Origin: Deltaproteobacteria bacterium
GTDB lineage: Bacteria > Desulfobacterota > SM23-61
NCBI GenBank assembly: GCA_029857975.1
Contig: JAOUFX010000013.1
Coordinates: forward strand, 1-15,028
Reading direction: 5' to 3'
DNA: 15,028 bases
Shown here: positions 1,231-15,028 of the stretch, in pieces
How the letters are laid out: each line of letters opens with the position of its first letter
Numbering within the stretch: position 1 is the first letter of the stretch
Notes under the pieces: model-generated
What the model was told of the DNA's origin: nothing
Database searches by the model: none
Seen by the model: the letters and a program-made list of their open reading frames with translations, nothing else
Position numbers and translations under genes: made by a program

Positions 1231-1446
1231 TCAATCTTTTTCCCTTCCTTTGACCACGATGAAAAATACAATAAAAATCGCTGCCAGGCAGATTCCCAGG
1301 GCCAAGAAGATCTTGATCGCTGGACTGCCTTCAGCATCGGAACGCTGGAAGCACCCGGATGAAAATAAAAGCAAGAGTGAAAAAAACCAACTCCAATTCT
1401 TAAAGATTCTTTGGGCGCTGTCGACAACTTGCTTCAATCCCCGCAT
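1231..1446 (-). CDS. small membrane protein, possible lipoprotein
   Basis: A 71-aa ORF with an amphipathic N-terminus, a hydrophobic stretch at about residues 19-31 ending in SSGC (Cys32), a short polar linker, and a second hydrophobic segment at about 43-66 with a positive end (KGREKD). The SSGC could be a weak lipobox, with Ser rather than Leu/Val at -3, or simply part of a two-segment hairpin membrane protein. The ATG is supported by an AAGGGGA Shine-Dalgarno eight bases upstream and by a candidate promoter at 1476-1504. It is the first gene of the minus-strand operon with the Nudix and BamE-like genes. I do not recognise a family. An overlapping plus-strand frame (1001-1453) is judged spurious. 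Confidence 0.55.
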   Translation of the reverse strand: MRGLKQVVDSAQRIFKNWSWFFSLLLLFSSGCFQRSDAEGSPAIKIFLALGICLAAIFIVFFIVVKGREKD

Positions 1447-1459
1447 GGAATAAATCCCC

Positions 1460-1488
1460 TTGAGTTTATGGCCGATTTTTAATATATT
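1460..1488 (+). promoter_or_regulatory. candidate sigma70 promoter for the DUF192 gene
   Basis: TTGAGT (1460-1465), a 17-base spacer and TATATT (1483-1488) point toward the DUF192 gene, with a leader of about 58 bases. It physically overlaps the oppositely directed candidate at 1476-1504. Confidence 0.35.
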
Positions 1489-1504
1489 TAAACCCAGCTG
1501 CCAA
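1476..1504 (-). promoter_or_regulatory. candidate sigma70 promoter for the minus-strand Nudix operon
   Basis: Read on the minus strand there is TTGGCA (1504-1499), a 17-base spacer, and TAAAAA (1481-1476). The start of transcription would fall near 1469, giving a leader of about 23 bases with the AAGGGGA ribosome-binding site. The -10 is only a 4/6 match. Confidence 0.35.
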
Positions 1505-1552
1505 GAATAGTTTACCCTAATAGATAAAAATATTCACTATGCTTATCAAAAA

Positions 1553-2026
1553 ATGAGTGAGCTTCAAAAAATTTCCAGGGCAAAAGGTTTTTTCAAGTTT
1601 CTTTTTTCCCTTTTTTTAATCCTGACTTTTGAGATTGAAAGCGTCTTGCCGAACGAACAAACTTTCATCTTTCTAACTCTCAAGGAGAAAATAATAAGAG
1701 TTGAAGTGGCCCGAACCGAGAGGGAGAAAGGCAAAGGGTTGATGTTTCGGGAAAGTCTCGGAAAAGATGAAGGTATGCTCTTTATCTATGACCGGGAAGA
1801 AACATTGTCTTTCTGGATGAAAAATACCCGCATTCCTCTTTCCATTGCTTTCATCGATCAACAAGGAGAGATCGTCGACATCCAGGATATGGAACCTTTC
1901 AACCTGCGGACGCGAGTTTCCGCCCGGCCGGCCCAGTACGCCCTGGAAATGAATCAGGGGTGGTTTAAAAAAAACGGAATCGGTGTGGGAGATGTGGTAA
2001 AACTGCCGCCTGATTTATGGAAATAA
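1553..2026 (+). CDS. exported DUF192 family protein
   Basis: A 157-aa protein. A basic N-terminus and a hydrophobic stretch (about residues 13-28) make a signal peptide or anchor, and the remainder (about 47-152) is a DUF192 domain. Family hallmarks are visible: KGLMFR (61-66), FWMKNTRIPLSIAFID (87-102) and YALEMNQGWF (129-138). DUF192 proteins are small beta-barrel-like periplasmic or extracytoplasmic proteins of unknown biochemical role. The gene is monocistronic by position: divergent from the Nudix operon and convergent with the OYE gene. There is no convincing Shine-Dalgarno before the ATG. The start is chosen because it gives a complete signal peptide and no other good start lies nearby. 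Confidence 0.88.
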   Translation: MSELQKISRAKGFFKFLFSLFLILTFEIESVLPNEQTFIFLTLKEKIIRVEVARTEREKGKGLMFRESLGKDEGMLFIYDREETLSFWMKNTRIPLSIAFIDQQGEIVDIQDMEPFNLRTRVSARPAQYALEMNQGWFKKNGIGVGDVVKLPPDLWK

Positions 2027-2112
2027 ATTTTTTGGTCATTTGGTCCTTTAATCTTCGGATCGTCTGGCTGTTTCCCCTTCTCGCCTTTTCCCTTTACCCT
2101 TCGCCTTACGCC

Positions 2113-3144
2113 TTACGGTATTTCTTCTCTTCCTAAATTTGGATTCTGCAGGCAGGCAATGGGCCTACCGGCGTGCATCTCCTGCGTGCAAAAGTTGCAA
2201 TAGGTGCAGGAGACAACTTCATCTTCTCTCCCCTCCTGCATCTTCTCTGGCCAGTACGGATCAGCCAATAACTGACGGCCGAGGGCCACAAGGTCAGCCT
2301 GTCCTTCCTGTAAAATCTTTTCGGCGCCGGCGCGGGTTTGCACTTTTCCCACCGCAACAACCGGAATGGTAACTTTCGCCTTGATTTTAGCGGCAAGTTC
2401 GGCGTGGGTCCCTTCGGGAGCCGAAGCCGGGGGAATGGAAAGCTCATCGGTCCGCCCCATGCCGGCTGAAACATCGATCACATCCAGCCAGTGGTTCTCC
2501 AAGGCTTGGGCAAAGCGCGCACTCTCTTCTATAGGAGTCCCTCCTGGAATTCCATCTACCGCGCTATGCCGATAAAGCAGAAGGAACTTTTCTCCCACCG
2601 CCTCGCGCATGGCCACAACCAGCTCCATGCCCAAGAGCATGCGCTTCTCGGCATTGCCACCGTATTCATCGGATCTCTGGTTGGTTAAAGGGGAAAAGAA
2701 CTGGTGGATGAAATATCCGTGCGCTCCGTGAACCTCAACCCCGTCAAACCCGGCTTCCTGGCAATGCCTGGCGGCTGCGGCGAATTTCTCGACCACCGTA
2801 CGAATTTCCTCACGGGTAATCTGGCGATAGGACTCGCGGACAGAAGGGGCAACCGCCTGGCCGTTCAATTCATTCCCGTGCCAGAGTTGCAGGACTACTT
2901 TGGCTCCCTGGTCATGAATCGCCATGACCAGGGGACGCAGGCCCTGGGCCCAACCAGCCCGTAAAAGTAGATCGACAGGTGTGCCATGCATGATAATCAG
3001 GCCCACTCCGCCCCTGGCGCGCTCTACAAAATATTGAACGGCCTGGTTGTTCCTCAACCCGAAATTCGTAACCACGGGCGCAAAGACGATGCGGTTTCTG
3101 AGTTCAGTGCCTTTGATCCGCAGCGCGTCAAAAAGGCGAGGCAT
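2113..3144 (-). CDS. Old Yellow Enzyme family NADH:flavin oxidoreductase with 4Fe-4S site
   Basis: A 343-aa protein that is an FMN-binding TIM barrel of the OYE/2,4-dienoyl-CoA reductase type. Visible features are the N-terminal RIVFAPVVTN strand, QLWHG (86-90), the active-site segment VHGAHGYFIHQFFSP (138-152) followed by RSDEYGG, and the late phosphate-binding part VALGRQLLADP (286-296). A cysteine set C313, C316, C319 and C331 near the C-terminus matches the 4Fe-4S site of dienoyl-CoA reductases, with a two-residue gap between the second and third Cys. The protein stops soon after and lacks the FAD/NAD(P)-binding C-terminal half of the long (~650 aa) enzymes, so it needs an external electron donor. 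It is the last gene of the GAF/HD-GYP operon, 25 bases after the ferredoxin-like gene, which could be that donor. The ATG has an AAGGAG site. The substrate is unknown; an enoate or enoyl-CoA is likely by family. Confidence 0.9.
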   Translation of the reverse strand: MPRLFDALRIKGTELRNRIVFAPVVTNFGLRNNQAVQYFVERARGGVGLIIMHGTPVDLLLRAGWAQGLRPLVMAIHDQGAKVVLQLWHGNELNGQAVAPSVRESYRQITREEIRTVVEKFAAAARHCQEAGFDGVEVHGAHGYFIHQFFSPLTNQRSDEYGGNAEKRMLLGMELVVAMREAVGEKFLLLYRHSAVDGIPGGTPIEESARFAQALENHWLDVIDVSAGMGRTDELSIPPASAPEGTHAELAAKIKAKVTIPVVAVGKVQTRAGAEKILQEGQADLVALGRQLLADPYWPEKMQEGREDEVVSCTYCNFCTQEMHAGRPIACLQNPNLGREEIP

Positions 3145-3169
3145 TTAATACTCCTTGAGAAAAAGGTTC

Positions 3170-4234
3170 TTATATCTTTCCCATCTCTTTGGCGATTTGC
3201 AGGTAGGTTTCCATCGGCTTGGCCGGGGGGGTATAGAGTTCTTTGGGTTTTTTCGGATATAACGAGAGGGCCTTCGTTGGGCAGGTCGTCACGCAGAGCC
3301 CGCAGCCCACGCAACGTTTCAGGTCGATTTTTGCTAGGTCCTCTTCCATGAATATGGCTTCCATCTGGCATCGCTCCAGACAGGTTTCACAGCCAGCGCA
3401 CAGATCCTCATCCACCCGGGCGAAATAATTGGATTTCACCACGCTGCTGGGATGGGGGTGAAGTTTGATGGCTTTGAGCATTCCGCAGCAACAAGAACAG
3501 CAATTGCACATTCCCCCCGTTTTTTGGGCGTTGCCCGGACTGGGCACCAAACCAACTTCCTCACTCTTCTGCAGGACGTTCAACGCTTCTTCCTTCGTTA
3601 TCCTCCTGCCGAACCCGTTTTCGATGTAGTATTCCCCCATCGCTCCAAAGGCGAAACAAGATTCCAGGGGCTTGGAACAGGGATGGCCGAGCAGTCCGCT
3701 CTTTTTCCGGCAGATGCATTCAGCCAGGGCTATGGTCTTTTGCGCTTCGATGATCTTGCGTAATTCATCGTAGGGCTTAACCTCCACAGCTGCCTCCAGG
3801 CTTTCTTGTACAGGGATAACCCTCAGCTGTGGGGTTTGCGGGCGGATTAATTCCTTGTACATGGCCTCCTGTCCATAGGCTTCAAATAACTCGCACAGTT
3901 CCCGGTCGAGGTTTTTCACCTGGTATTCAAGAATGCCCACGATAAACATCATAGCCATGTATTGATTGACCCCGTCGATCTTGAGCCTCAGGATGAGTCC
4001 TTTCCTGGACATGTGGTACAGAAAATCCGCAACTTTTCCCGGCTCACGGCCCAGGCGCTGAGCGATCGCTTCCGCCTTCTCCGGAAGAGGCTTCAGCTGG
4101 CAGGCCATTTCCGCTTCTTCTTCCGTAAAAAGTTTTTGGATAATCTTCAGCTCCACCCCGCTCTGGGTTTTTGGATAGCCCGTAGGGAGGGAATCCAGGT
4201 GTTCCCGGAGTCTCTCGAAAACCGTTTCATTCAT
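3170..4234 (-). CDS. cysteine-rich 4Fe-4S ferredoxin-type protein with winged-helix-like N-terminus
   Basis: A 354-aa protein. Residues about 33-85 look like a winged-helix region (AIAQRLGREPGKVADFLYHMSRKGLI). A central cysteine group follows (C173, C175, C186, C193), then a dense run MCNCCSCCCG (242-251). At the C-terminus are two classical 4Fe-4S ferredoxin motifs, C279/282/285/289 and C308/311/314/318, the last followed by Pro. At least two 4Fe-4S clusters are expected; the central cysteines could hold more. There is no signal peptide, so it should be cytoplasmic. Similar proteins occur in sulfate-reducing and syntrophic bacteria as electron-transfer partners. The start overlaps the stop of the upstream HD-GYP gene by eight bases, and the OYE gene follows, so passing electrons to the OYE protein is a reasonable inference. 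A redox-sensing role is the alternative. Confidence 0.85.
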   Translation of the reverse strand: MNETVFERLREHLDSLPTGYPKTQSGVELKIIQKLFTEEEAEMACQLKPLPEKAEAIAQRLGREPGKVADFLYHMSRKGLILRLKIDGVNQYMAMMFIVGILEYQVKNLDRELCELFEAYGQEAMYKELIRPQTPQLRVIPVQESLEAAVEVKPYDELRKIIEAQKTIALAECICRKKSGLLGHPCSKPLESCFAFGAMGEYYIENGFGRRITKEEALNVLQKSEEVGLVPSPGNAQKTGGMCNCCSCCCGMLKAIKLHPHPSSVVKSNYFARVDEDLCAGCETCLERCQMEAIFMEEDLAKIDLKRCVGCGLCVTTCPTKALSLYPKKPKELYTPPAKPMETYLQIAKEMGKI

Positions 4235-5498
4235 TCTCTCTCTCCTCTTCCGGCTTTTTTTCGCTTTCCTCGTCTTCGATGGCCAGGTGATCCAGGTCTC
4301 TGAATTTATCGAAATCTTCCTGCTGATCTACATAACGATTCTGGATGGCGCGCACCGCCCCGAGATTATCCAGGAATACATCCAGGATCTTCGGGTCAAA
4401 ATGAGACCCTCGCCCCTCCCGCAGGATGCGGAGAACCTCTTTTTCCTCCAGGGCCTCCTTATAAACCCTCTTCGAGGATAAGGCATCAAAAACATCCGCC
4501 AGGATGGTAATCCTGCCTTCAATGGGAATCTCTTCCCCCTTCAGACGACGAGGATATCCCGTCCCATCAAATCTTTCATGATGGGTGAGAGCCACGATGC
4601 GCGACTGCCTTAATATCGCCGCATTCGATCCTTTGAGGATATTCCCACCGATGATCGTGTGGTACTCCATGAAATGTCGCTCTTCCGGCGTCAGCCGGCC
4701 GGGTTTCTGCAAAATACCGTCGGGAATTCCTAATTTTCCTACATCGTGCATGAGGCTGGATCGAAGAATCATATTTACTTCCTCTTCCCCCCAGCCCAGT
4801 CCCTCAGCAATCAGGGTCGAATATTCGCTCATGCGCTTGATATGATTGGCCGTCTCTTTATCCCGGTACTCGGCGGCAACGCCCAGGCGGAAGATCGTGT
4901 CCAGATGGGCATGCTTTAGATCTTCTGTGAGCTCGGCATTTTCAATGGCCACCACCGCCTGGGAAGCCAGAGAAGAAACTAACCTTTCCTGCTTGGCCGG
5001 GAAGGGCACCACCTTGCCGTCGGTGGCATCGCTCATGGCATTGATCAATTGCAGGACCCCCGCTACCTTCCCTTCCCGGTTGAGCATGGGGACAACCATC
5101 ATGGAACGTGTGACATAGCCGGCCCGTTCATCCCAGGAAGCGTTGTAATGGAAAGAGGCCTCGCGCGGAATGTCCCTCACGTTGGGGATGTTAAGTACCT
5201 TTTTGGTCAAGGCAACGTAACCGGCAATCGATTCCCTGGAAATCGGCAAAGAGAAGGATTGATACATCTGCTGCATGCAGTCTTTCCCCCACCGTTCAAT
5301 CAAACTATGGCACTGGCTCACCTTGAAAATTAATTGGCCATTTTTCGCCAGGTAGAGCGTTCCCGCATCGGCTTTCGTTAGGCGGCGAGCTTCCTGCAGA
5401 ATAAGGTCCAAGAGTTTCTCCAGGTCGTGGATGCTGGAGAGGGCGATCCCTACGTTTAAAAGTTTTTCAAAGTCTTCGGTGAGGGAAGAACGCTCCAC
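4227..5498 (-). CDS. GAF domain / HD-GYP c-di-GMP phosphodiesterase
   Basis: A 423-aa cytoplasmic signalling protein. Residues about 25-190 are a GAF sensor domain (DAGTLYL, SIAGYV, VVPMLNREGKVAGVLQLIN). About 200-375 is an HD-GYP domain with the complete catalytic set: H219 of NHIKR, HD 251-252 with K255, HHE 306-308 and GYP 314-316, plus D335/D338 in ILADVFDAL. The domain hydrolyses cyclic di-GMP, and all metal ligands appear intact. The C-terminal tail (about 395-423) is very acidic and probably disordered. There is no membrane segment and no response-regulator receiver domain, so the GAF ligand is probably a small cytoplasmic molecule. The start is GTG, with AAGGAG eleven bases upstream and a good promoter further out. 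It is the first gene of the operon with the ferredoxin-like and OYE genes. Confidence 0.93.
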   Translation of the reverse strand: MERSSLTEDFEKLLNVGIALSSIHDLEKLLDLILQEARRLTKADAGTLYLAKNGQLIFKVSQCHSLIERWGKDCMQQMYQSFSLPISRESIAGYVALTKKVLNIPNVRDIPREASFHYNASWDERAGYVTRSMMVVPMLNREGKVAGVLQLINAMSDATDGKVVPFPAKQERLVSSLASQAVVAIENAELTEDLKHAHLDTIFRLGVAAEYRDKETANHIKRMSEYSTLIAEGLGWGEEEVNMILRSSLMHDVGKLGIPDGILQKPGRLTPEERHFMEYHTIIGGNILKGSNAAILRQSRIVALTHHERFDGTGYPRRLKGEEIPIEGRITILADVFDALSSKRVYKEALEEKEVLRILREGRGSHFDPKILDVFLDNLGAVRAIQNRYVDQQEDFDKFRDLDHLAIEDEESEKKPEEERENE

Positions 5499-5576
5499 GT
5501 TTTCTGAGACTCCTTATCCTACCTGGAATTCTTTAAGCAGGCTGATAAAAAATTGGAAAAAGCAAAGATATGGGTG

Positions 5577-5605
5577 ATTATAGACTTCTATTCCACTAAA
5601 GGCAA
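5577..5605 (-). promoter_or_regulatory. sigma70-type promoter for the HD-GYP/Fe-S/OYE operon
   Basis: Read on the minus strand: TTGCCT (5605-5600), a 17-base spacer, and a perfect TATAAT (5582-5577). Transcription would begin near 5570, giving a leader of about 70 bases before the GTG at 5498. No c-di-GMP riboswitch-like structure was recognised in that leader. Confidence 0.6.
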
Positions 5606-5690
5606 GTAAGATTAAAATGTTTTTGTGCTTTCGCCCGGGTTGGGAAGCTCCTACCTGAAAAACTGAGGGGTGACAAAAAATTATTTCTGT

Positions 5691-5719
5691 TTGACACCCT
5701 CCGCCAATCATCCTATATT
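5691..5719 (+). promoter_or_regulatory. near-consensus sigma70 promoter facing the LmbE gene
   Basis: TTGACA (5691-5696), a 17-base spacer and TATATT (5714-5719), an 11/12 match with ideal spacing. The predicted start point (about 5726) coincides with the left end of the repeat element at 5726-5896. The whole element would therefore be the 5' leader of the deacetylase mRNA. Confidence 0.65.
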
Positions 5720-5725
5720 GACAAA

Positions 5726-5896
5726 AAATTTAATAGGACGCAGATAACCGCAGATGACCGCAGAAACAAAAAAGACGCTGTGCGCATAGCGCTAAGCGGC
5801 TTTCTGTACTACTAACGTTCAAATTCTTGAAATTTTGTTACGCATATTTTAATTTTATCTGTGTTTATCTGCGTTAATCTGCGTCCAATAAATTTT
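5726..5896. repeat. GACGCAGAT inverted-repeat element, copy 2
   Basis: The left arm begins AAATTTAATAGGACGCAGAT (5726-5745), identical to copy 1, and continues with CGCAGATG and CGCAGAA units. The right arm (about 5856-5896) is its inverse: TATCTGCG, AATCTGCGTCC, AATAAATTTT. The terminal inverted repeats are thus about 40 bases, imperfect, and built of roughly 10-base units. The core carries a short hairpin, CGCT...AGCG around TGCGCA (about 5776-5791), not shared with copy 1. No ORF and no target-site duplication were seen. This element and the two promoters account for most of the 5499-5972 gap; nothing else was recognised there. Confidence 0.7.
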
Positions 5897-5972
5897 GGGT
5901 TGCGGCACTGCCGCACTATGTACATCCGTGTCCCAAAAGGAATTTCCTAAGCAATTAAATTCGGAGGCTGTC

Positions 5973-6740
5973 TTGAATAAACCAGGGAAAAAGAGAAAAA
6001 AATTTTTACGAGTTTTGGTTATCAGCGCCCACCCGGATGACGTGGACTTCGGCTGCGCCGGGACGCTGGCCAGGTGGGCAAAAGAAGGAGCGGAAATCGT
6101 CTATACCATCTGCACCAGCGGTGAGAAAGGGTCAGATGATCCCTCTTTGAGCAACCTGGAATTAGCGAGGACCCGTGAGAAAGAACAACTTGCCGCCGCC
6201 AGGGTAATCGGGGCCAAGGAGGTTATTTTCCTGCGGAAACCCGACGGCGAAATGCAATATTCATTGGAATTCCGAGGCGAATTGGTTAGGATCATCCGCC
6301 AATGTCGCCCGGATATCCTCTTAACCCACGATCCGGCCAATCGCGCCTTTGACAACCAATACCTCTTCCACGCCGACCACCGCGTCACCGGAGAACTGGC
6401 TTTTGATGCTGCTTATCCCGCAGCCCTGAACCGTAATTTTTTCCCGGGGCACCTGATCGCAGGATTAAATCCTCATGCGGTCTCCGAGATGTATTTTTTT
6501 GCCACTTCCCAGCCGAATACCTGGGTGGACATCGAGCCCACCCTCGATCTAAAAATCAAGGCTCTGCGCTGCCACATCAGCCAGATCAAAGAACCAAAAG
6601 TTATGGAGAAGTTCGTCCGCACCTGGTTCGGCGCGTGGGGGCAGGAAAAAGGCCTGGCCTATGCTGAGCGTTTCCGGTGTTTGCATATTTTCCGTGATCC
6701 TGGTCAGCGCCTGCGACAACTGAAGAAGTCTATGCCCTGA
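5973..6740 (+). CDS. PIG-L/LmbE family N-acetyl-sugar deacetylase
   Basis: The product is 255 aa from the TTG at 5973, a typical LmbE-family length. The zinc and catalytic motif AHPDDVDFGCAGTL lies at residues 19-32 (HPDD 20-23). LLTHDP follows at 116-121 and HADHR at 133-137, supplying the third ligand and substrate contacts. The family hydrolyses N-acetyl groups from GlcNAc-type conjugates, as in thiol, antibiotic or lipid precursors; the exact substrate is not evident. The TTG start is chosen because GGAGG (5963-5967) sits five bases before it. The longer frame from a TTG at 5895 would run through the end of the repeat element and add residues the family does not need. It appears to be transcribed alone from the promoter at 5691-5719. 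Confidence 0.9.
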   Translation: MNKPGKKRKKFLRVLVISAHPDDVDFGCAGTLARWAKEGAEIVYTICTSGEKGSDDPSLSNLELARTREKEQLAAARVIGAKEVIFLRKPDGEMQYSLEFRGELVRIIRQCRPDILLTHDPANRAFDNQYLFHADHRVTGELAFDAAYPAALNRNFFPGHLIAGLNPHAVSEMYFFATSQPNTWVDIEPTLDLKIKALRCHISQIKEPKVMEKFVRTWFGAWGQEKGLAYAERFRCLHIFRDPGQRLRQLKKSMP

Positions 6741-6754
6741 AGATTGATGGACTC

Positions 6755-6823
6755 GTAAAAAGCAAAGTAGGGGCACGGTCACCGTGCCCCTACATCAGAT
6801 GCGAGGCGCGCAGCGGTTTTTAC
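6755..6823. repeat. hairpin repeat between convergent genes, possible terminator
   Basis: The inner perfect hairpin is GTAGGGGCACGG (6767-6778), loop TCA, CCGTGCCCCTAC (6782-6793). Outer arms GTAAAAA (6755-6761) and TTTTTAC (6817-6823) give a second nested inverted repeat. It lies between the convergent ends of the deacetylase gene (6740) and the prenyltransferase gene (6891). The inner stem lacks an adjacent U-run, so it is not textbook rho-independent. Its position and strength would still suit bidirectional transcript ending or 3'-end protection. The sequence resembles dispersed intergenic hairpins of environmental genomes. Confidence 0.6.
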
Positions 6824-6890
6824 TTTTATCATGCAGCACTCATGGAACATCGGAGCGGAGACGGGATGGGTGTGGGAAAAGAAAGGAAAT

Positions 6891-7841
6891 CTATAACTCA
6901 GAGAGATAGAAAGACAGGCTCAGGAGGAGGCCAGTGGATAAATGGGATAAAATGGTCAGGGCCTGGGCCGGCCTCAATCTGGGAGAGTTTTCATATTCCT
7001 TTAAAGCCACCCTGACCCCTTTCAGGTTAATGGGAATGGTACAAAAAGTAATAAAAGAGAATAGGGGGAGGATTCTCAGCAGGACGCCCAAAGCCACAGA
7101 GAAATAAACCGCAGAAACCAACACCACAAAAACTTTGGCCGCCTTCTTTTTACCCAAGCGCACCACCCAATGGTTCTTGCCGACCGCCAGGTCCGCCTCC
7201 CGGTCCGGAAACTGGTTGATGAAAAGAACATTGGTGATCAAAAAGCCAACCGGAATCCCGGCCATTATGGCAACGGCACTGATCGTCTCAGCCTGAACAA
7301 AGTAAGCGCCGATCACCACCAGAGGGCCAAAACAGAAGCCGGTTAAAAGTTCGCCCACGCCCCGGGAAGCCAATTTCACCCGCGGTTCCACATAGAAGTA
7401 GGCCGTACCCACGCCGATCAAACCCAGGGGAATGATCGGCCACCCCCTCTTCCAGGCCAGGAAAAGGCCGATGGCGATCCCCAGCAACAGGGCACCCACG
7501 CCAAATCGGTAAACCGACTCCGCCTTCAACCGGCCATCGATGATAAATGGACTTCCCCCGTCAAAAGGTCGGTTGGCTTCACGATTCAAAAGGTCGTTCC
7601 CACTGCGGTAATCGAAATAATCATTCAGCGTGTTGGTGGCGGTATGCAACGCCAGCACGCCGGCTAAGGTAAGCATAAAATAAAAAGGATTAAAAATACG
7701 GGTTTCGTGCCAGGCCATTACCGCGCCTAAAATTACGGGAACCAAGGAAGCTGTAAAGAACGGAGCCCGCAATTCGGCCAGCCAAATTTTCAAAGGAACT
7801 TTTTGTTCTTTCATTCTCCCCTTCTCTAAATTTATCCCCAT
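6891..7841 (-). CDS. UbiA/MenA-type prenyltransferase
   Basis: A 316-aa integral membrane protein with about eight or nine hydrophobic segments. It carries both prenyl-diphosphate/Mg2+ motifs of the UbiA superfamily: NDYFDYRSGND (73-83) and NQFPDREADLAVGK (209-222). The details, especially NDYFDYxSGxD, the GVGELLTGFCFGPLVVIGAYF segment around 161-181 and the HWVVRLG after the second motif, are closest to MenA (1,4-dihydroxy-2-naphthoate polyprenyltransferase of menaquinone synthesis). No other men gene is in the window, so a different aromatic acceptor is possible. ATG 7841 has GGAG four bases upstream; an in-frame ATG at 7814 preceded by AAGGGGAG is an alternative. The gene is divergent from the ABC operon, and the MITE lies about 30 bases upstream of its start codon. 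Confidence 0.88.
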   Translation of the reverse strand: MGINLEKGRMKEQKVPLKIWLAELRAPFFTASLVPVILGAVMAWHETRIFNPFYFMLTLAGVLALHTATNTLNDYFDYRSGNDLLNREANRPFDGGSPFIIDGRLKAESVYRFGVGALLLGIAIGLFLAWKRGWPIIPLGLIGVGTAYFYVEPRVKLASRGVGELLTGFCFGPLVVIGAYFVQAETISAVAIMAGIPVGFLITNVLFINQFPDREADLAVGKNHWVVRLGKKKAAKVFVVLVSAVYFSVALGVLLRILPLFSFITFCTIPINLKGVRVALKEYENSPRLRPAQALTILSHLSTGLLLSLSFYLSEL

Positions 7842-7870
7842 TTTACTCCAATTTGCCCCTTGGTCAATGG

Positions 7871-7880
7871 CAATTTTTTA
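7871..7880. repeat. left target-site duplication of the MITE
   Basis: CAATTTTTTA, directly repeated at 8166-8175 immediately outside the inverted repeats of the element between them. Confidence 0.85.
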
Positions 7881-8165
7881 CTTGCCCCCCTTCACTTTTC
7901 CAATTCAGTTGTAAGTTCATAAAGATTAGCAAGAAAGAGGCAGGAAGATGCTGAGTACCGGCCAATCGGCGGGAAATATCTTGCGCCCATCTTCCCCTTT
8001 TGTTTCCGATAGAAGAGAGCGGAAAAGGATTTCGCAGCATGCTGCAACGGTTGAAGTTAAGCGCTGGAATAGGAACGAACAACTGCCTCATTGGCCAAAC
8101 GAAGTATCTTCCTGCCTCTCTAGGCTCGAAAATGCTAAGGAAATTTAAAAGTGAAGGGGGGCAAG
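7881..8165. mobile_element. MITE, 285 bp, non-autonomous
   Basis: The termini are a perfect 19-bp inverted repeat: CTTGCCCCCCTTCACTTTT at 7881-7899 and its complement at 8147-8165. The element is flanked by a perfect 10-bp direct repeat. Further inside, the arms continue to match as inverted copies: AGAGGCAGGAAGAT at 7936-7949 against 8106-8119, and GGCCAAT at 7960-7966 against 8090-8096. The core has a GCAGCATGCTGC palindrome (8034-8045) and TTCCG/CGGAA arms. No transposase or credible ORF is present; a 66-codon frame inside is not protein-like. Element size, matching ends and duplication are all what a MITE mobilised in trans should show. A 10-bp duplication would fit an IS4-type or similar transposase, which is inference. 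Perfect ends and duplication suggest a fairly recent insertion. Confidence 0.9.
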
Positions 8166-8175
8166 CAATTTTTTA
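8166..8175. repeat. right target-site duplication of the MITE
   Basis: CAATTTTTTA, identical to 7871-7880. It ends exactly where the TTGACA -35 box of the ABC-operon promoter begins (8176). Confidence 0.85.
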
Positions 8176-8203
8176 TTGACAATTTTCTTGCTTTTGGTAG
8201 ATT
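8176..8203 (+). promoter_or_regulatory. sigma70-type promoter of the Liv-type ABC operon
   Basis: A perfect TTGACA (8176-8181), a 16-base spacer and TAGATT (8198-8203, 4/6). The AT-rich duplicated target directly upstream has the composition of an UP element. The leader would run about 300 bases to the ATG at 8508. In that leader I see a possible small ORF and a hairpin, but no riboswitch I can name. Confidence 0.5.
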
Positions 8204-8439
8204 GAACTGTAAACTTCAAAGTAGCTTGGTTAGGGATCACTCCTTTCATCTATATTTTTTTGTTGGGCAACGGTTTTCCATTCTTGCAAGAGGTAAGGTG
8301 CGGGGACACCTGCTCATCATATAATCCTTTCTATCTTTCTTTTTTATATCAAAAACTAGGCTTGAGGATCCGCTTGGACAGGGGATTCAAAATTTTGTAG
8401 AAGGCCAGCCTTCAAAAACTACCAGGAAGGGAGGTGGGG

Positions 8440-8511
8440 ATGCAGCGCAGGAAGGAAGGCTGGGCCCAAGAAGTTGAACCTTTCGTTTCACCAAAGGAGG
8501 AGAGGCCATGA
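8440..8511 (+). CDS. putative 23-codon leader ORF coupled to the binding-protein gene
   Basis: ATG at 8440 follows AGGGAGG (8428-8434) at a five-base spacing. The frame encodes MQRRKEGWAQEVEPFVSPKE and three more residues. It stops at TGA 8509-8511, overlapping the ATG of the binding-protein gene as ATGA. That arrangement is classic for translational coupling. The peptide is not rich in Leu, Ile or Val, so it is not a standard amino-acid attenuation leader. Its length is within chance expectation in a purine-rich leader, and the main gene has its own strong ribosome-binding site. It could be coincidental. Confidence 0.3.
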   Translation: MQRRKEGWAQEVEPFVSPKEERP

Positions 8512-9752
8512 ATAGAAAATCAATCATCATCGGACTTATGTTAAGCCTGGCGCTGTTCTTGCTCTCGACCCCTTCCTCGGCCAAGCCCATCAAAGTATTA
8601 GCCCAGTTTCCCATGAGTGGCCCTGTCGGCAGTCTACCGGAGTTCGGCTGGGGGTTCATCGACGGCATGGACTACATCAACGGCCAAGGGGGAGTAAATG
8701 GCAAACCGATCACCTATTTTTTAGAGGATATGCGCTACAGCCCCACGGTGGAAGTGGCGAACTTTACCCGTTACGCCGCCGCGGAGAATCGCGACGAATT
8801 CATCTTGGCCTCGGGATATATTACCGGGGGGCTGAAGCCGCTGATCGATAAGGTAAACAAGGAAGAGCGCATCCCCTGGTTGGACGGGTCTTATTCCACG
8901 GAAATCTTCGGGCCGGAAGGTGGGCCATCCAAATATCCCTATTATTATTCTTTGGGGGCTACTTACGGCGACCAGTTTCGCGTTCTCCTGAATTGGATCA
9001 AAGAGGACTCCAAGGGTAAAGGAAAAGTCGCCATCGTCTACAGCCCGACTGAATGGGGACGGGACCCATTAGCAATGGCCCGAGCCCATGCTCAAAAGAT
9101 CGGGCTGCAAATCGTGGCCGAGGAAGAATATGCCTACACGGCCACGGATGCTACGTCTCAGGTTACCAATGTGCGCAAGGCCAAGGCCAACTATGTCTTC
9201 TACCATGGATATTCCGGGGCTGCCCCCTATACCGCCATCTTCATGAAGACAGCCAAACAGTATCTGAAGAAAGCCACCATCCTGGGGACGCACTACACCA
9301 CCGGACGATATCCCATCCTGATTGCCGGAAAAGCAGTTGATGGGATGGTCGGGGCCGGCTGCCGGCCTCAGGAGGACGAAATGGATAATCCCATGGTGAA
9401 GATGGCCCACGAATTCGCTGAAAAATACAAGCGCAAAGCAGGCGTCAAAGATATGTTCCTTTACATGGAAGGTCTGACCTACGCCCTAATCTTCCACGAA
9501 GCCCTCAGTCGGGCGGATAAGGCCGGCGAATTGACCCGCGAAGGGGTGAAAAAGGCCCTGGATAATATGGTCTGGGACTACCATGGTCTTTTCGCGGGCC
9601 GCGGATTTTCCTATAAATCCCATACCGTCCCCACGGTTAGGATCTACCGTGGCCAGGTGCAAAAAGAAGTTGCAAAAGGCGGAAGGAAAATTGGGATTGG
9701 GACCTGGAAGCCACTCTCTCCCTGGATCAATACCGACGTCGAATTAAAGTAA
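8508..9752 (+). CDS. ABC transporter substrate-binding protein, branched-chain amino-acid (HAAT) type
   Basis: A 414-aa periplasmic binding protein. The signal peptide has a short basic start, a hydrophobic core (about 6-20) and probable cleavage after SSA at residue 25. The mature part is a type I periplasmic-binding fold (Peripla_BP_6): the early KVLAQFPMSGPVG segment, then GFIDGMDYINGQGGVNGKPI, the typical contact region for such ligands. A central KVAIVYSPTEWGRDPLAMAR strand-helix and a C-terminal REGVKKALDNM helix follow. It would deliver its ligand to the LivH/LivM permeases encoded downstream. Family members bind branched-chain amino acids, amides, urea or aromatic and other organic acids; which one applies here cannot be read. 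AAAGGAGG (8493-8500) lies seven bases before the ATG. A hairpin separates it from the permease gene, consistent with higher expression of the binding protein. Confidence 0.92.
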   Translation: MNRKSIIIGLMLSLALFLLSTPSSAKPIKVLAQFPMSGPVGSLPEFGWGFIDGMDYINGQGGVNGKPITYFLEDMRYSPTVEVANFTRYAAAENRDEFILASGYITGGLKPLIDKVNKEERIPWLDGSYSTEIFGPEGGPSKYPYYYSLGATYGDQFRVLLNWIKEDSKGKGKVAIVYSPTEWGRDPLAMARAHAQKIGLQIVAEEEYAYTATDATSQVTNVRKAKANYVFYHGYSGAAPYTAIFMKTAKQYLKKATILGTHYTTGRYPILIAGKAVDGMVGAGCRPQEDEMDNPMVKMAHEFAEKYKRKAGVKDMFLYMEGLTYALIFHEALSRADKAGELTREGVKKALDNMVWDYHGLFAGRGFSYKSHTVPTVRIYRGQVQKEVAKGGRKIGIGTWKPLSPWINTDVELK

Positions 9753-9773
9753 GGAACCTATTTTCTAATCTCT

Positions 9774-9815
9774 CCCCTTCCCCCCGTCCATTCTCCCTTA
9801 AGGAGATGGAAGGGG
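9774..9815 (+). promoter_or_regulatory. intercistronic hairpin after the binding-protein gene
   Basis: The outer arms are CCCCTTCC (9774-9781) and GGAAGGGG (9808-9815). The inner arms are TCTCC (9792-9796) and GGAGA (9802-9806). No U-run follows, so it is more likely an RNA stabiliser or partial attenuator than a full terminator. It fits the usual excess of binding protein over membrane subunits. Confidence 0.4.
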
Positions 9816-9842
9816 TGAGGGGTAAGAAAGGCTATTTCCAAA

Positions 9843-10727
9843 ATGACCGACTTGATCCAAACCGTGGGAGCCGGTCTTTTGATCGGCTGCGTTTATGGAC
9901 TCCTGGGTCTGGGGATCGTCATCATCTTCCGGGCGTCGGAGGCCTTCAATTTCGCCATCGGGGAGTTCTTAGTCGTCGGTTCGTTCCTTTTTTACCTTTT
10001 CTTTTTTGATCTGCACCTCCCTTTTCTTCTGGCCCTTCCTCTCGGCCTCCTTGCTGCGGGGGCACTGGGAGCCCTCATCGAGCGCCTTTCCATCAAACCA
10101 CTTCTGGGTCGCTCGCCCCTCTCCATGACCATCATCACCCTCGGCCTGGCCAGTGTTCTTCGATCCTCCGTGCAGCTCATTTTCGGCGCTCATTCTTATT
10201 CTTTTTTCTTGGACTTGCCCGATATCAGTCTTGAATCCGAAAATCTTCTATTCCCCTCGGAACGGGTCTGGGCCGGTTTGTTATCGGTTGTTGCTTTCGG
10301 ATTTATTCTATTCTTTCTTTTCCGCACCCGCTGGGGAGTGGCTATCCGGGCCACCTCGGAAAACCAGGCCAAGGCCATGGCCTTCGGTATCGATGCCCGG
10401 TTCATTCTTCTTTTAGTCTGGGCCTTGAGTTCCATGTGTATCGCTATGGCCGGGGTCATGATCTCCAACTTCGGCGCCCTCTCTTACCTGACCGGTATCG
10501 CGGGCCTGCGGGCCATTCCCGTAGTACTCATCGGGGGGATGGACAGCATCGGCGGGGCCCTCATCGGCGGGTTGATCGTGGGCCTCTGCGAAGCCCTGGT
10601 CGGCAGTTATATCGAACCTTGGGGATTGGTGGGATTCAAGGACGTTGCCCCTTATCTCCTTCTGCTCATCGTCCTTTTCATCCGTCCCTACGGGCTTTTC
10701 GGGACCGTGAAGATTGAAAGGGTCTGA
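9843..10727 (+). CDS. livH: branched-chain amino-acid type ABC permease LivH
   Basis: A 294-aa integral membrane permease with about eight hydrophobic segments, normal for LivH. Family signatures are present: YGLLGLGIVIIFRASEAFNF (19-38), then AIGEFLVVG; the cytoplasmic coupling loop IRATSENQAKAMAFGID, which contacts the ATPase; the VVLIGGMDSIGGALIGGLIVG segment; and the closing RPYGLFG. It forms the inner-membrane channel with LivM, encoded at the end of the same operon. The Shine-Dalgarno is weak (GAAAGG eleven bases before the ATG), and the gene follows the intercistronic hairpin, so its translation may be lower than that of the binding protein. The stop lies one base before the start of the next gene. 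The symbol denotes family membership, not a proven leucine substrate. Confidence 0.93.
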   Translation: MTDLIQTVGAGLLIGCVYGLLGLGIVIIFRASEAFNFAIGEFLVVGSFLFYLFFFDLHLPFLLALPLGLLAAGALGALIERLSIKPLLGRSPLSMTIITLGLASVLRSSVQLIFGAHSYSFFLDLPDISLESENLLFPSERVWAGLLSVVAFGFILFFLFRTRWGVAIRATSENQAKAMAFGIDARFILLLVWALSSMCIAMAGVMISNFGALSYLTGIAGLRAIPVVLIGGMDSIGGALIGGLIVGLCEALVGSYIEPWGLVGFKDVAPYLLLLIVLFIRPYGLFGTVKIERV

Positions 10728-10728
10728 G

Positions 10729-11514
10729 ATGCTCTCTATCGAAAACCTTCGCGTGGTCTATCATGATGTAATTTCCATCCTCAACGGGATCTCCCTCAAA
10801 GCGGCTGGAGGGGAGATCTCCGTGATCATCGGGGCCAATGGCGCCGGCAAGACCACCCTCCTGAGAGCGATCAGCGGCATGCTGGAAATGTTTGATGGAG
10901 ACATTATTGAAGGAGACATTAAAGTCGGCGATTTTTCTCTTAAAGGATTGGACAGTACGGACATCATTAAAAAATTCGGTTTGACCTACGTGATGGAAGA
11001 CCGCCCGGTCTTCTGGTACCTGACCATCGAAGAGAATCTGGCTGCCGCCGCATACTCGCGCTGGGACAAAACCGTTAAGGCTGATATGGAAAAAGTCTTC
11101 GATTATTTTCCGGTGCTGGATAAACTGCGCCAGCAAAAAGCCGGCTACACGTCTGGCGGAGAGCAACAGATGCTGGCCATTGGCATGTCGCTGATGACTC
11201 AACCCAAGATTCTCCTTTTCGATGAACCCTCTCTGGGATTGGCCCCTCTGATTACCGAAGAGCTCTTCCGCATCATTGAGCGACTCAACCGGGAAGGATT
11301 GACCGTCGTCCTCGTCGAACAAAACGCCCATGCCGCCCTGCAGATCGGTCACCGAGGTTGTGTACTGGAAACCGGCCGAGTCGTGCTTGAAGGGCCGGCC
11401 GCTGCGCTTCTCGAGAATGAAGACGTCCGAGAATTTTATCTGGGGGCCGGCGCCAAGGAGCGCAAGAGCTATCAGGACGCCAAACGCTACAAGAGAAGAA
11501 AACGATGGCTGTAG
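10729..11514 (+). CDS. livF: branched-chain amino-acid type ABC ATPase LivF
   Basis: 261 aa from the ATG at 10729, chosen over an in-frame TTG at 10714 that lies inside livH; AAAGGG precedes the ATG by seven bases. Complete ABC motifs are visible: Walker A GANGAGKTT (35-43), signature SGGEQQ (142-147), and Walker B ILLFDEPSLGLAP (161-173). Position 198 has Gln (VEQN) in place of the H-loop His, which is normal for LivF. The first-ATPase features (IGANGAGKTT, QMLAIG, the EQNA segment) identify LivF rather than LivG. The C-terminus carries an unusual basic tail (about 243-261, KERKSYQDAKRYKRRKRWL) beyond the usual YLG ending. The stop overlaps the start of livG by ten bases. Confidence 0.93.
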   Translation: MLSIENLRVVYHDVISILNGISLKAAGGEISVIIGANGAGKTTLLRAISGMLEMFDGDIIEGDIKVGDFSLKGLDSTDIIKKFGLTYVMEDRPVFWYLTIEENLAAAAYSRWDKTVKADMEKVFDYFPVLDKLRQQKAGYTSGGEQQMLAIGMSLMTQPKILLFDEPSLGLAPLITEELFRIIERLNREGLTVVLVEQNAHAALQIGHRGCVLETGRVVLEGPAAALLENEDVREFYLGAGAKERKSYQDAKRYKRRKRWL

Positions 11515-12293
11515 AGATCGAAAATAAAATTTTGCAGATCCGCAACCTGAACCTTTCTTTCGGGGGCATCAAGGTTCTCCGGGAAGTAAGCTTCTCCGTG
11601 CCGGCCGGCGCAATTTTTGCCATTATCGGGCCCAATGGCGCCGGCAAGACCAGCCTGCTCAACTGCATCAACGCCCACTACCGCCCCCAGGAGGGAGAGA
11701 TTTTTTTCCAGGGGGAGAACATCCTGCCGCTAAAACCCCACGTGATCGCCGCCCAAGGGGTCGCTCGTACCTTTCAGAAAGTGGAACTCTTCCACGGGAT
11801 GTCCGTCCTGGATAACATCAAGCTTGGCCGCCATTTTCTCATTCCGACTTCCCTCCTGGGAAGTTTTTTCAGGTGGCCAACCACCATAGCCACCGAACTC
11901 CGCCATCGCCAGGAGATCGAAGAGGAGATTATCGACTTCTTGGGGCTTTCTTCCGTCCGCTATGCCATCGTGGATACCCTCCCGCTGGGGGTGCGCAAAC
12001 GGGTGGACATGGCCAGGGCCCTGGCCATGAAGCCTAAGCTTCTTCTCCTCGACGAGGCCATGGCCGGTATGGCCGTGGAAGAGAAGGAAGACATCGCCAG
12101 CTACATTCTGGACATCCACCGCGATCTGGGTATAACCATCGTTTGGATCGAGCACGACCTGTCGGCGGTTATGGACCTTTCTGATCGGGTTACGGTACTG
12201 AATTTTGGGGAAAAGATCGCCGAGGGAACGCCCAAGGAAGTCCAGCAAAACCCCCTGGTCATTGAAGCCTATTTAGGGCGGAGGAAATATTGA
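11505..12293 (+). CDS. livG: branched-chain amino-acid type ABC ATPase LivG
   Basis: A 262-aa ATPase of LivG type. It has SFGGIKVLREVSF (18-30), Walker A GPNGAGKTS (42-50), the Q-loop segment VARTFQ (Q91), Walker B LLLLDEAMAGM (179-189) and H-loop His217. The signature region reads LPLGVRKRVDMARALA (159-174): the canonical second glycine of LSGGQ is absent, as often seen in LivG-like proteins, which use LPxGxxKR. Walker B is followed by Ala where most have Pro (DEA rather than DEP). It should pair with LivF to energise the LivH/LivM channel from the cytoplasmic side. The start overlaps livF, and the stop is twelve bases before the synthetase gene. Confidence 0.92.
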   Translation: MAVEIENKILQIRNLNLSFGGIKVLREVSFSVPAGAIFAIIGPNGAGKTSLLNCINAHYRPQEGEIFFQGENILPLKPHVIAAQGVARTFQKVELFHGMSVLDNIKLGRHFLIPTSLLGSFFRWPTTIATELRHRQEIEEEIIDFLGLSSVRYAIVDTLPLGVRKRVDMARALAMKPKLLLLDEAMAGMAVEEKEDIASYILDIHRDLGITIVWIEHDLSAVMDLSDRVTVLNFGEKIAEGTPKEVQQNPLVIEAYLGRRKY

Positions 12294-12305
12294 GAAGGAG
12301 GAGAT

Positions 12306-14210
12306 TTGGCGCAGAACCTGATTGACCTCCTCATCCGGAACGGCAGGGAATTCCCCAAGCGCCCGGCCCTGCGGGAAAAGCGTTACGGGGTTTGGACGCC
12401 GACCCCCTGGCAACAGCTCGGCAAAGAAGTGGGTAATTTTGCCCGGGGTTTGAAGATTCTGGGGCTTGGTAAGAACGAAGCCGTGGCCGTGGTCGGCGAC
12501 AACAAGCCGGAATGGATTATTGCCGAATTAGGAACGATTGCTTCCGGAGGGGTCATCACCGGGATGTACCCCGACTGCCTGGCCGAAGAAGTGCTTTACC
12601 TCATCTCTTATGCCGACGCCCGCATCGTTGTTCTCAGCGACCAGGAACAGGTGGACAAGATCCTTAAGGTCTGGCCCAAAATCGTGGGGGCCGTAAGAGC
12701 GGTCATCGTCTGGGATTCGCGGGGTATGAACCACTACTACGCCGATCATTCCTTCCTGAAGCGTTTTGAGGAAGTGCTGGAGATGGGAGCGGAGGAGGGG
12801 AAAAACCATCCTGATTTCCTCCAACAGGCCGCCGGGGACGTCCCCCCCGATACTCCCGCCATGATGCTCACCACCTCCGGAACCACAGCCTTGCCCAAAC
12901 TGGCGATCCTCAGCCACGAAAATCTTCTTTATGCCGGCGAGAGTTACGGTAAAGTGGTCTCCATGGAGCCTGAAGATCAGCTCCTCTCCCTGGCCCCCCT
13001 GCCCTGGATCGGCGAACAGCTCTACGCCGTGGTCCGCTGGCTCTTGAGCGGGGCCTGCTACAATTTTCCCGAAGAGCCCGAGACCCTGCGCCGCGACCTC
13101 ATCGAGCTCCAGCCTTCCTATTTCGGCGGGACTCCTTCCCGGTGGGAAGACCTCGTCTCGGTCATCCAGGCGGCCATGGACAACGCCGATCCCCTGAAAA
13201 GAAACCTTTACGGATGGGCCGTGCGAACGGCTTTGAAACGCACCGAAGATGAGCTGGCCGGGAAAGATCCCGGGCTATGGGCCAAGTTTCTCTCCGGCCT
13301 TCTCAATTTCTCCGTGCTCCGCGCACTGCGCAATCGGGTCGGGTTAGGGCGGGTGAAGATGGCCGTCACCGGCGGCGGAGCTCTCTCTCCGGAGGTGTTC
13401 AAATATTTCAAGTCTTTGGGGATCGACATCCGCCAGGTGTACGGGCAGACCGAATGCGCCGGAATTGCCACCACGCACCGGGACGGGGATGTGCGCCCGG
13501 AGACGGTCGGGGTGCCCATACCCGGGATGGAAGTAAAGCTCTCCGAGCAGGGAGAGATTATGGTCCGGGGCAAATCCATCATGCTCGGCTATTACAAGAA
13601 TGAGAAGGCCACGAAGGATGCTTTTACCCCCGACGGCTTCCTGCGGACAGGGGATGCCGGTTATTTCGGGGAAGACGGGCATTTATATATCTTTGATCGC
13701 TTCAAGGACATCATGGCCCTGGCCGACGGTTCGCGTTTCGCCCCTCAGGACATTGAGATCCGCTTAAAGTTCAGCCCTTATATCAAGGAAGCGGTGGTCT
13801 GCGGGGCTAATCAGCCTTTCGTCACGGCGATCATTTCCATCGATCTCGAAAACGTGGGTAACTGGGCCAAGCGCAGGGGAATTCCTTATACCACCTACCA
13901 GGATCTTTCCCAGAGGCCGGAAGTCTACGAGCTGGTGCGCGAAGAGATCCGCAAACTTTGCCAGAGGTTCCCGCAAAATATGCGCGTTAGGAAATTTGCC
14001 ATTCTCCTCAAGGAGCTCCATCCGGATGATGAAGAGCTGACGCGCACGCGCAAGGTCCGCCGGGGATTGATTTACGAGCGCTATAAACCCCTGATTGAAG
14101 ACCTATACCAACCAACGCCGGAACATCTATTGGACATCCAGATCCGTTATGAGGATGGAAGAATCTCCTCTTTAAAAGGACAGGTGGCCATTGCGGAGGT
14201 GACGCCTTGA
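12306..14210 (+). CDS. AMP-forming acyl-CoA synthetase (long-chain fatty acyl-CoA ligase-like)
   Basis: A 634-aa ANL-superfamily ligase that makes an acyl-adenylate and then an acyl-CoA thioester. The phosphate-binding core is TTSGTTALPK (189-198), where the usual second Gly is Ala and the Gly after Lys is Leu. VYGQTECAG (378-386) is the adenylate-binding motif, followed by RTGD (447-450) with the ribose-binding Asp and the hinge DRFKD (464-468). The likely catalytic Lys is K583 in TRTRKVRR. Length and layout match the FadD15/long-chain acyl-CoA synthetase group more than acetyl- or benzoate-CoA ligases, but substrate choice cannot be assigned. It begins with TTG directly behind AAGGAGGAGA. 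It sits between livG and livM, suggesting activation of the imported compound or of an acid derived from it. Confidence 0.9.
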   Translation: MAQNLIDLLIRNGREFPKRPALREKRYGVWTPTPWQQLGKEVGNFARGLKILGLGKNEAVAVVGDNKPEWIIAELGTIASGGVITGMYPDCLAEEVLYLISYADARIVVLSDQEQVDKILKVWPKIVGAVRAVIVWDSRGMNHYYADHSFLKRFEEVLEMGAEEGKNHPDFLQQAAGDVPPDTPAMMLTTSGTTALPKLAILSHENLLYAGESYGKVVSMEPEDQLLSLAPLPWIGEQLYAVVRWLLSGACYNFPEEPETLRRDLIELQPSYFGGTPSRWEDLVSVIQAAMDNADPLKRNLYGWAVRTALKRTEDELAGKDPGLWAKFLSGLLNFSVLRALRNRVGLGRVKMAVTGGGALSPEVFKYFKSLGIDIRQVYGQTECAGIATTHRDGDVRPETVGVPIPGMEVKLSEQGEIMVRGKSIMLGYYKNEKATKDAFTPDGFLRTGDAGYFGEDGHLYIFDRFKDIMALADGSRFAPQDIEIRLKFSPYIKEAVVCGANQPFVTAIISIDLENVGNWAKRRGIPYTTYQDLSQRPEVYELVREEIRKLCQRFPQNMRVRKFAILLKELHPDDEELTRTRKVRRGLIYERYKPLIEDLYQPTPEHLLDIQIRYEDGRISSLKGQVAIAEVTP

Positions 14211-15028
14211 AATCCTTATCCGATCTCTACAACCGGTATTTCGCCTCCACCGCCATCTTCAGCCATCGCCAGGACGAGCGGATCTTCCGCACCCTTTTCA
14301 AGCGGACTTTTTTAATGATTTTTTTCATCCTGGTGGCCCTCTCCCCTCTCTATCTGGACGAATACAATTTCTACATTCTCAACCTGGTTCTGGTCAATTT
14401 GATCGGGGCCCTGGGGCTTAATTTACTCGTCGGGTTTACCGGCCTCCTTTCTCTGGGACATGCCGCTTTCCTGGGGGTGGGAGCTTATACCTCCGCCCTC
14501 TTAATTACCCACTATGGGGCTCCTCTCCTCTTCAGTATCCTCTGCGCCGGATTGGTGGCTGCCGCCTTCGGCTTGCTCGTGGGCATTCCCTCTTTGCGCA
14601 TCAAAGGGTTTTACCTGATGGTGGCCACTCTCGCTTTCCAGTTCATCATTGAGTATACCATTATCCACTGGGAGAGCCTGACCCGCGGAATCCGGGGGAT
14701 TGAGCTCCCTCTTCCCTCCTGCCTCGGCCTCTCCCTCGGAAAGCACTACGCCTTTTTCTATTTCATTTTCCTTCTGGCGGCTTTTTCCATGTGGGGTCTA
14801 AAAAATATCAACCGCTCCAAGATCGGTCGGGCTTTCATCGCCATCCGCGATAACGACGTTTCTTCGGAGATCATCGGCATCCCGGTCTTCCGTTATAAGC
14901 TTCTCTCCTTTGCCATCAGCGCCTTTTATGCCGGCATGGCCGGGGCGCTCTTTTCCGCCCTGCAGAGGGGCGCCATTCCGGAAGATTACACCTTCTTCAA
15001 ATCCATCGAGTTCCTGGCCATGGTTCTG
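14207..15028 (+). CDS. livM: branched-chain amino-acid type ABC permease LivM (partial, runs off the window)
   Basis: An open frame of 274 codons from a TTG at 14207 to the window edge without a stop. The TTG is supported by GGAGGTGA (14195-14202) four bases upstream and overlaps the synthetase stop as TTGA. A polar N-terminus (about 30 residues) is followed by several hydrophobic segments. LivM signatures are present: NLLVGFTGLLSLGHAAFLGV, PSLRIKGFYLMVATLAFQF, the coupling loop AFIAIRDNDVSSEIIGI, and SAFYAGMAGALFSAL. It forms the channel with LivH. Separation of livM from livH by three genes is unlike the usual H-M-G-F order. The C-terminal part lies outside the window. Confidence 0.92.
   Translation, partial: MKSLSDLYNRYFASTAIFSHRQDERIFRTLFKRTFLMIFFILVALSPLYLDEYNFYILNLVLVNLIGALGLNLLVGFTGLLSLGHAAFLGVGAYTSALLITHYGAPLLFSILCAGLVAAAFGLLVGIPSLRIKGFYLMVATLAFQFIIEYTIIHWESLTRGIRGIELPLPSCLGLSLGKHYAFFYFIFLLAAFSMWGLKNINRSKIGRAFIAIRDNDVSSEIIGIPVFRYKLLSFAISAFYAGMAGALFSALQRGAIPEDYTFFKSIEFLAMVL

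Follow-up and report, generated by a model that had tools for sequence, protein, structure and literature searches.

A stretch of 15,028 nucleotides from a Deltaproteobacteria bacterium (assembly GCA_029857975.1, contig JAOUFX010000013.1, positions 1 to 15,028 of the forward strand; hereafter the window) carries a short element at 7881-8165, and raises the question of how an element that has no transposase gene came to lie there and what set the place of its insertion. The reading favoured here, with a probability of roughly 0.8, is that it is a non-autonomous MITE which was moved in trans by cut-and-paste transposition with a 10-bp target duplication, and which belongs to a family inserted in register beside sigma70-like promoters.

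The element is 285 bp long and is bounded by perfect 19-bp terminal inverted repeats, the left one, CTTGCCCCCCTTCACTTTT, on the plus strand at 7881-7899 and the right one, its exact complement, on the minus strand at 8147-8165. The 10-bp target-site duplication CAATTTTTTA lies on either side, at 7871-7880 and 8166-8175. An inner 14-bp inverted repeat, AGAGGCAGGAAGAT, occupies 7936-7949 (plus strand) and 8106-8119 (minus strand) and is perfect over 14 bp within a 17-bp arm (94 %), and a second inner repeat of 7 bp, GGCCAAT, is present at 7960-7966 (plus strand) and 8090-8096 (minus strand). At up to three mismatches CTTGCCCCCCTTCACTTTT matches twice in the window, a count reached in none of 200 shuffles, and the MITE folds as single-stranded DNA much better than its shuffles (z -5.97). 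These coordinates and shuffles confirm the preliminary description, made from the sequence, of an intact 285-bp MITE with perfect 19-bp ends and a 10-bp duplication, and the 14-bp and 7-bp inverted blocks that it had placed inside the arms were both located. Coding capacity was not recognised in the MITE; neither of its two mechanically called ORFs had a Pfam match (E up to 0.001), and the window had no Rfam match at the gathering threshold. A stop-free frame of 94 codons crosses the whole element in the window, L205 and L296 (three of the five complete 284-285-bp copies), and the same frame is open over just 78 and 71 codons in L083 and L098, so there is no good sign of coding, in keeping with the earlier view of the element as non-coding. 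With its terminal repeats, short length, lack of a transposase gene, target duplication and several copies elsewhere, the window element is a MITE.

The MITE is flanked by a minus-strand gene of the UbiA prenyltransferase family (6891-7841; profile match, with a mechanically assigned start) and a plus-strand ABC transporter operon of the branched-chain amino acid type, the first gene of which (8508-9752; profile match) encodes a periplasmic binding protein (PF13458). On the left, a -35-like TTGACC (7862-7867, minus strand) starts 13 bp outside the MITE end, which is the register of the family, and is followed after a spacer of 16 by a -10-like TAAAAT (7840-7845, minus strand; consensus match) that reads towards the UbiA-family gene. 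On the right, a -35-like TTGACA (8176-8181, plus strand) starts 10 bp outside the MITE end, abuts the duplication and belongs to the divergent promoter, whose -10-like TAGATT (8198-8203, plus strand; consensus match) again follows a spacer of 16 and reads towards the ABC operon. A consensus scan of this region for promoters found two where 0.9 were expected, which alone is not significant. The left-hand -10 box runs into the UbiA-family gene as mechanically called, and homology with L002 begins at residue 10, so that the true start of this gene is probably near 7814. The -35 boxes of the divergent promoters were 13 bp apart before the insertion and are 308 bp apart now.

The nearest relatives among the loci found were L001 (JAHJQK010000144.1), with a UbiA-family protein 99 % identical to that of the window, and L002 (79 %). 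At the orthologous site of L002 the element is absent and a single TTTTTTA tract is present, that is, one copy of the T-tract target and not two. The divergent promoters, read from alignments as TTGACT-N16-TAGAAT and TTGACA-N16-TACACT, are carried by L002 without the element, and therefore predate the insertion. L001 was unusable as an empty site as the region has been lost in blocks, and a second candidate comparison, G001:C70 with G002:C20, was too diverged to reveal the target. Four blocks of the window are missing from L001 (7874-8693, 9061-10759, 10863-11621 and 11927-13669), with short homologies at some of the joints and a mosaic identity (98.6 % over 5924-7873 and 86 % over 3174-5755), and these gaps represent either real operon decay or a chimeric assembly. 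Counting the window, five complete copies of 284-285 bp were found, the other four being 72-96 % identical to the window copy. The genome of L001 (G001) contains a full-length copy (C157, 96 %), whose own 10-bp duplication is another sequence, TCATAAAAAC, as well as a further copy at 78 % (C35). The copies in G004 and G005 (72 and 73 %) are one common insertion, which is probably older than the split of these genomes because the duplication is the same and the flanks are 96-97 % identical. The empty site in L002, together with the 96 % copy beside another duplication, upholds the claim that a transposase-less element had transposed here, and searching relatives for the 19-bp terminus returned many other copies rather than none.

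The end signature of the family is CTTGCC..CCTTCACTTTT, and genomes were scanned with the degenerate pattern CTTGCCNNCCTTCACTTTT, allowing at most one mismatch. The pattern was present in 12 of 59 relatives, with control counts of 0 or 1, and two of these positives (G025 and G027) have a single match each that may be due to chance. All eight genomes returned from the class of G001 were positive for the ends, many times or at least four times, as were three of the five returned from a second class (G017, G054 and G089), and a scan of the phylum for CTTGCCNNCCTTCACTTTT without mismatch was positive in 12 of 395 genomes, these three among them. The fetched loci yielded 66 end pairs, 67-606 bp in span, in a search that took no account of flanks, and 38 of them have a 9-10 bp duplication (at most one mismatch), compared with a mean of 0.69 and a maximum of 4 in 1,000 flank shuffles. 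Alignments that cover 80 % or more of the length divide the pairs into groups of 18, 11, 6, 5, 4, 2, 2, 2 and 2, with 14 singles; the window copy is a member of the group of 5, and its interior is partly common to some other groups. Judging by seven copies that are 92.7-98.5 % identical to an eighth (L236), a 260-bp subfamily has spread recently in G004. No partner was found for 125 of 217 termini.

Some candidate members were rejected. A viral match to the 19-mer (L077) covers 19-20 bp inside a coding gene and is a chance match, a 1,398-bp end pair at L217 is a weak chance match, and L192 and L200, considered as an IS extending 1,207 bp from a terminus, are instead a duplicated gene plus a solo terminus. 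At these last two loci (G004:C1 and C57) a 1.2-kb segment occurs twice with 95.6 % identity, each time bordered on the 3' side by the same solo MITE end; the gene was read by eye as an iron-type alcohol dehydrogenase. Where a 297-bp element lies in G004 (L250), the matching flanks in G005 (L303) seem to enclose only about 50 bp, possibly what a deletion has left of such an element.

The position of insertions relative to promoters was analysed in 64 paired insertions, the 66 pairs less two with repeated flanks. A -35 box was defined as TTGACA, one mismatch being tolerated, and its offset as its start counted outside one element end. The box occurs at offset 12-14 in 54 of the 64 insertions and at exactly 13 in 44; offset 12 accounts for 9 and offset 14 for 3, and each remaining offset from 0 to 59 for 0-3. 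Over the wider range of 9-14 the box is found in 56/64, compared with 2-8/64 in nine control ranges, and in 28 of the 29 insertions that have an exact 9-11 bp duplication. The exceptions, in which the box is absent, number 8/64 at offsets 9-14 and 10/64 at 12-14. The TTGAC motif was first spotted in this same set of paired insertions; solo termini form a separate set, and 83 of these with distinct flanks have the box in 45 cases, with 0/83 at a control offset of 30-35. About half would be expected if the box were present on only one side of each insertion. In the 11 genomes with paired insertions, which belong to both classes, the box is present (offsets 9-14) in every one, as it is in the window, and the per-genome share of insertions that have it ranges from 1/2 up to all.

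A -10 box accompanies the -35 box. Alignment of 53 sites that were selected for the -35 box only, and not for a -10 box, gave T60 A73 x A52 A43 T54 (per cent) at spacer 17; two positions ahead of this -10 box a G stands in 45 % of the sites, and no position outside both boxes is above 0.46 bits. TATAAT with up to two mismatches follows at spacer 15-19 in 50/56 sites, compared with 23/56 at control spacers of 24-28. A -10 match is present at 48 of 52 insertion TTGAC sites versus 24 of 42 background TTGAC sites (Fisher p 7e-5), the background being a small one of non-ORF sites away from elements in the same fetched loci. This enrichment favours real promoters as the targets, and purifying selection against other sites could contribute to it. 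Since the -35 box stands outside the duplication and its surroundings vary between sites, it is part of the target rather than of the element. It is found at one given end in 6/10 copies of the 260-bp subfamily and 9/15 of a 298-bp subfamily, and at the same end in 4/4 copies of a 456-bp subfamily; a promoter can therefore stand at either end within a subfamily, and it is chiefly the target that is asymmetric. Outward genes adjoin 28/30 promoter sides and 23/27 opposite sides, which is about equal and does not discriminate between them. These data show the family to be inserted in register with sigma70-like promoter sites. Very short elements occur in the second class, at L234 (G089), L143/L181 and L135 (G054), with ends paired over 56, 67 and 71 bp; they resemble two ends placed back to back, and L135 and L143 are in the same promoter register.

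In the mechanism proposed, a transposase supplied in trans would join both ends of the MITE and insert it through a 10-bp staggered cut, which would leave the 10-bp duplication; a cut-and-paste mode for the family is assumed by analogy with known IS4 elements. The layout on one side is the element, the 10-bp duplication, usually 3 bp more and then the -35 hexamer, and a factor acting on that side would determine how far from the -35 box the cut falls, with TTGAC being read by the transposase or by an accompanying protein (ORF1), or the position being given by promoter-bound RNA polymerase, or a mix of these. The window MITE landed between two divergent promoters. The alternative that survives best, at somewhat less than even odds, is that the transposase or ORF1 reads TTGAC as plain DNA and that promoters are hit as tolerated TTGAC is mostly promoter, with no role for the polymerase. 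TTGAC is conserved far above the -10 box in an alignment of sites that were selected for TTGAC, ORF1 is modelled with a winged helix, which is a common DNA-binding fold, and target-arm specificity has been reported for some IS4-subgroup elements and for ISRm22 (PMC2266710). The better -10 match at insertions than at background TTGAC sites (48/52 versus 24/42) speaks against it, although selection may add to this difference and the background is small. There is weak support for the target being found via promoter-bound RNA polymerase holoenzyme or ORF1 and not via bare TTGAC. In the specific form of this idea, the transcription machinery guides the family, and ORF1, with its weak likeness to the RNA polymerase delta subunit and HARE-HTH domains, or the transposase would dock on sigma70 RNA polymerase bound at a promoter, at its upstream edge, and thereby direct the insertion to a point 13 bp ahead of the -35 box; this is possible but doubtful. 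An offset of 13 would place the duplication at about -48 to -39, where the polymerase has its upstream edge.

The source of the transposase is suggested by a single locus in G004, L198 (C41, 101-1203), where a stretch of 1,103 bp is enclosed by two outward-facing ends, of which the right has two mismatches and the other is exact. Its interior contains, on the minus strand, an intact ORF1 of 107 aa and a frameshifted and truncated transposase remnant. L198 has no duplication now, its flanks are without a -35 box, and only the 19-bp end is held in common with the complete MITEs. A full-length IS with the same ends, to which the preliminary description had looked, was accordingly found in part: one 1,103-bp copy has similar ends and an IS4-like gene, but it is decayed and no intact one was found. 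The 120 relatives of the remnant that were listed, from a total of 921, are each a single protein with a length of 388-416 aa. They belong to PF01609, and in an alignment of 26 the residues of D(62)D(102)E and all four of Y(2)R(3)E(6)K are invariant, the L198 copy ending before the latter motif. The predicted fold of the transposase (mean pLDDT 74.6) has as its closest match the Tn5 transposase (E 1.9e-8), which is a member of the IS4 family. Three relatives scored 117.6, 117.9 and 123.9 bits against the NCBIfam model IS4_2 (NF033591), below its cut-off of 152, and CTTGCC ends with a 10-bp duplication match no row of the IS4 subgroup table in PMC2266710. Because the scores are below the cut-off and the ends fit no row, an IS4-like group outside the tabled subgroups would be a fair name for the L198 transposase. 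A PDB sequence search with the transposase profile returned nothing up to E 0.1.

The protein collection contains no fewer than 960 relatives of ORF1, and the PDB sequence search gave two weak matches to it. The HARE-HTH (PF05066) and RNA polymerase delta profiles match it only below their curated cut-offs, and in a Foldseek search with its winged-helix model the top match was Rok, followed by an S. aureus polymerase complex, and no match reached E 0.001. One relative of ORF1 (P0172) and one of the transposase (P0115) have a longest contig of 202,856 bp in both cases, which suggests that they lie together. An IS4-like transposase (DDE + YREK, about 390-416 aa), encoded with the 107-aa winged-helix ORF1, is thus proposed with moderate support as the partner of the MITEs, since the two occur together in a single decayed copy whose ends are similar.

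Searches for an intact partner in 395 genomes of the phylum gave the broken G004 copy only, often with just four first-look candidates scored, and two further searches, both run without a positive control, gave 0/5 and 0/50 genomes. The 158 ORFs inside the 125 partnerless termini were compared with one another and by eye, a procedure in which the L198 remnant was not recognised. The genome contigs seen were at least 3,074 bp long, so an IS of about 2 kb assembled alone would presumably be missed, and the longest contig is below about 3.2 kb for most of the 120 listed transposase relatives; the missing intact IS is weak evidence because a stand-alone IS contig could be absent. Neither the transposase nor ORF1 was confirmed in viral contigs, and plasmids gave only distant matches below 60 % identity, in 28 records.

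It is unlikely that the transposase came from another family and that the likeness of the L198 ends arose by coincidence or convergence. The complete MITEs and L198 do share the 19-bp end only, and L198 has one end at two mismatches and is without a duplication, but its ends face outward around ORF1 and a transposase remnant, and IS4 elements typically duplicate about 10 bp (Table 1 of PMC2266710). In addition, none of 30 PF01609 loci fetched from 39 matches in ten genomes has such an end pair at up to four mismatches each, which removes only some of the candidates and those of PF01609 only. The notion that the hairpin-rich elements are host-useful regulatory modules kept at promoters, with transposition as their origin only, is more improbable still; the strong foldback of the window copy, the fixed place beside promoter-like sites and the retention of the insertion common to G004 and G005 are in its favour, whereas several subfamilies that cannot be aligned over their length, and that span 56-457 bp when paired, have their ends in common, partnerless termini are frequent (125/217), and the 260-bp subfamily has spread recently in G004. 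Random or merely AT-biased insertion, with survivors left upstream of promoters by selection, is very unlikely as the source of the register because the peak is one base wide (44/64 at offset 13, 9 at 12 and 3 at 14), although insertions within genes are generally lost and survivors would be expected between genes.

The IS4 family comprises the subgroups IS231, ISH8, IS4Sa, IS4, IS10, IS50 and ISPepr1 and is defined by D(60-110)D(100-150)E together with Y(2)R(3)E(6)K, and IS10 has CT ends but a 9-bp duplication (De Palmenaer et al. 2008, PMC2266710). The family described here resembles it in the duplication of about 10 bp, which is seen on the MITEs and not on L198, in the D(62)D(102)E and YREK residues of the transposase relatives, and in the single-ORF transposase of these relatives, the L198 copy itself being broken; it differs in its CTTGCC ends, the IS4_2 score below cut-off, the extra 107-aa ORF and the promoter register of the MITEs. 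MIC231 of Bacillus cereus is a transposase-less cassette with passenger genes and IS231 ends. It is like the MITEs in being transposase-less, in having the ends of an IS4-family element and in being moved in trans, but the passenger genes and IS231 ends set it apart, and we know of no promoter register for MIC231. In yeast, Ty1 and Ty3 insert upstream of promoters and are guided by the transcription machinery of RNA polymerase III; that system is eukaryotic, whereas bacterial sigma70-type promoters are concerned here and polymerase guidance is only a candidate. ISAjo2 and other IS1202-type ISs are found at dif sites (PMC10132070) and further ISs at REP sequences (PMC1525189). Such site-seeking ISs likewise insert at a short functional site or at a constant distance from one, but in the present family the site is the -35 box of a promoter-like sequence and the copies are MITEs.

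A literature search that included the available parts of PMC2266710 and PMC9330008 found no transposon with a promoter register, the target-arm Figure 3 of PMC2266710 being outside its coverage, and the word promoter is absent from the main text of PMC2266710. MITEs, IS4-type transposition and target-arm specificity are familiar parts, and the register upstream of sigma70-like promoters appears to be new within this coverage. That bacterial transposons can carry promoters with them or create new ones is known, and landing in a near one-base register at existing sigma70-like promoters would be a new kind of target choice. Insertion in this register spares genes and alters the upstream control regions of many genes at once, and each insertion would serve as a natural promoter map in uncultured bacteria. 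If RNA polymerase guides the family, a link between transcription and DNA transposition would become directly testable in bacteria, and the family would be the bacterial parallel to yeast Ty elements, whose integration is directed to promoters.

Other repeats are present at these loci. A dispersed repeat of about 42 bp occurs in the window at 80-121, 5725-5764 and 5855-5897 and several times in L001 too, and in G004 dispersed repeats of about 270, 135 and 115 bp lie within 2.5 kb of many MITE termini, at L196, L197, L199, L207, L211, L217, L222 and other loci.
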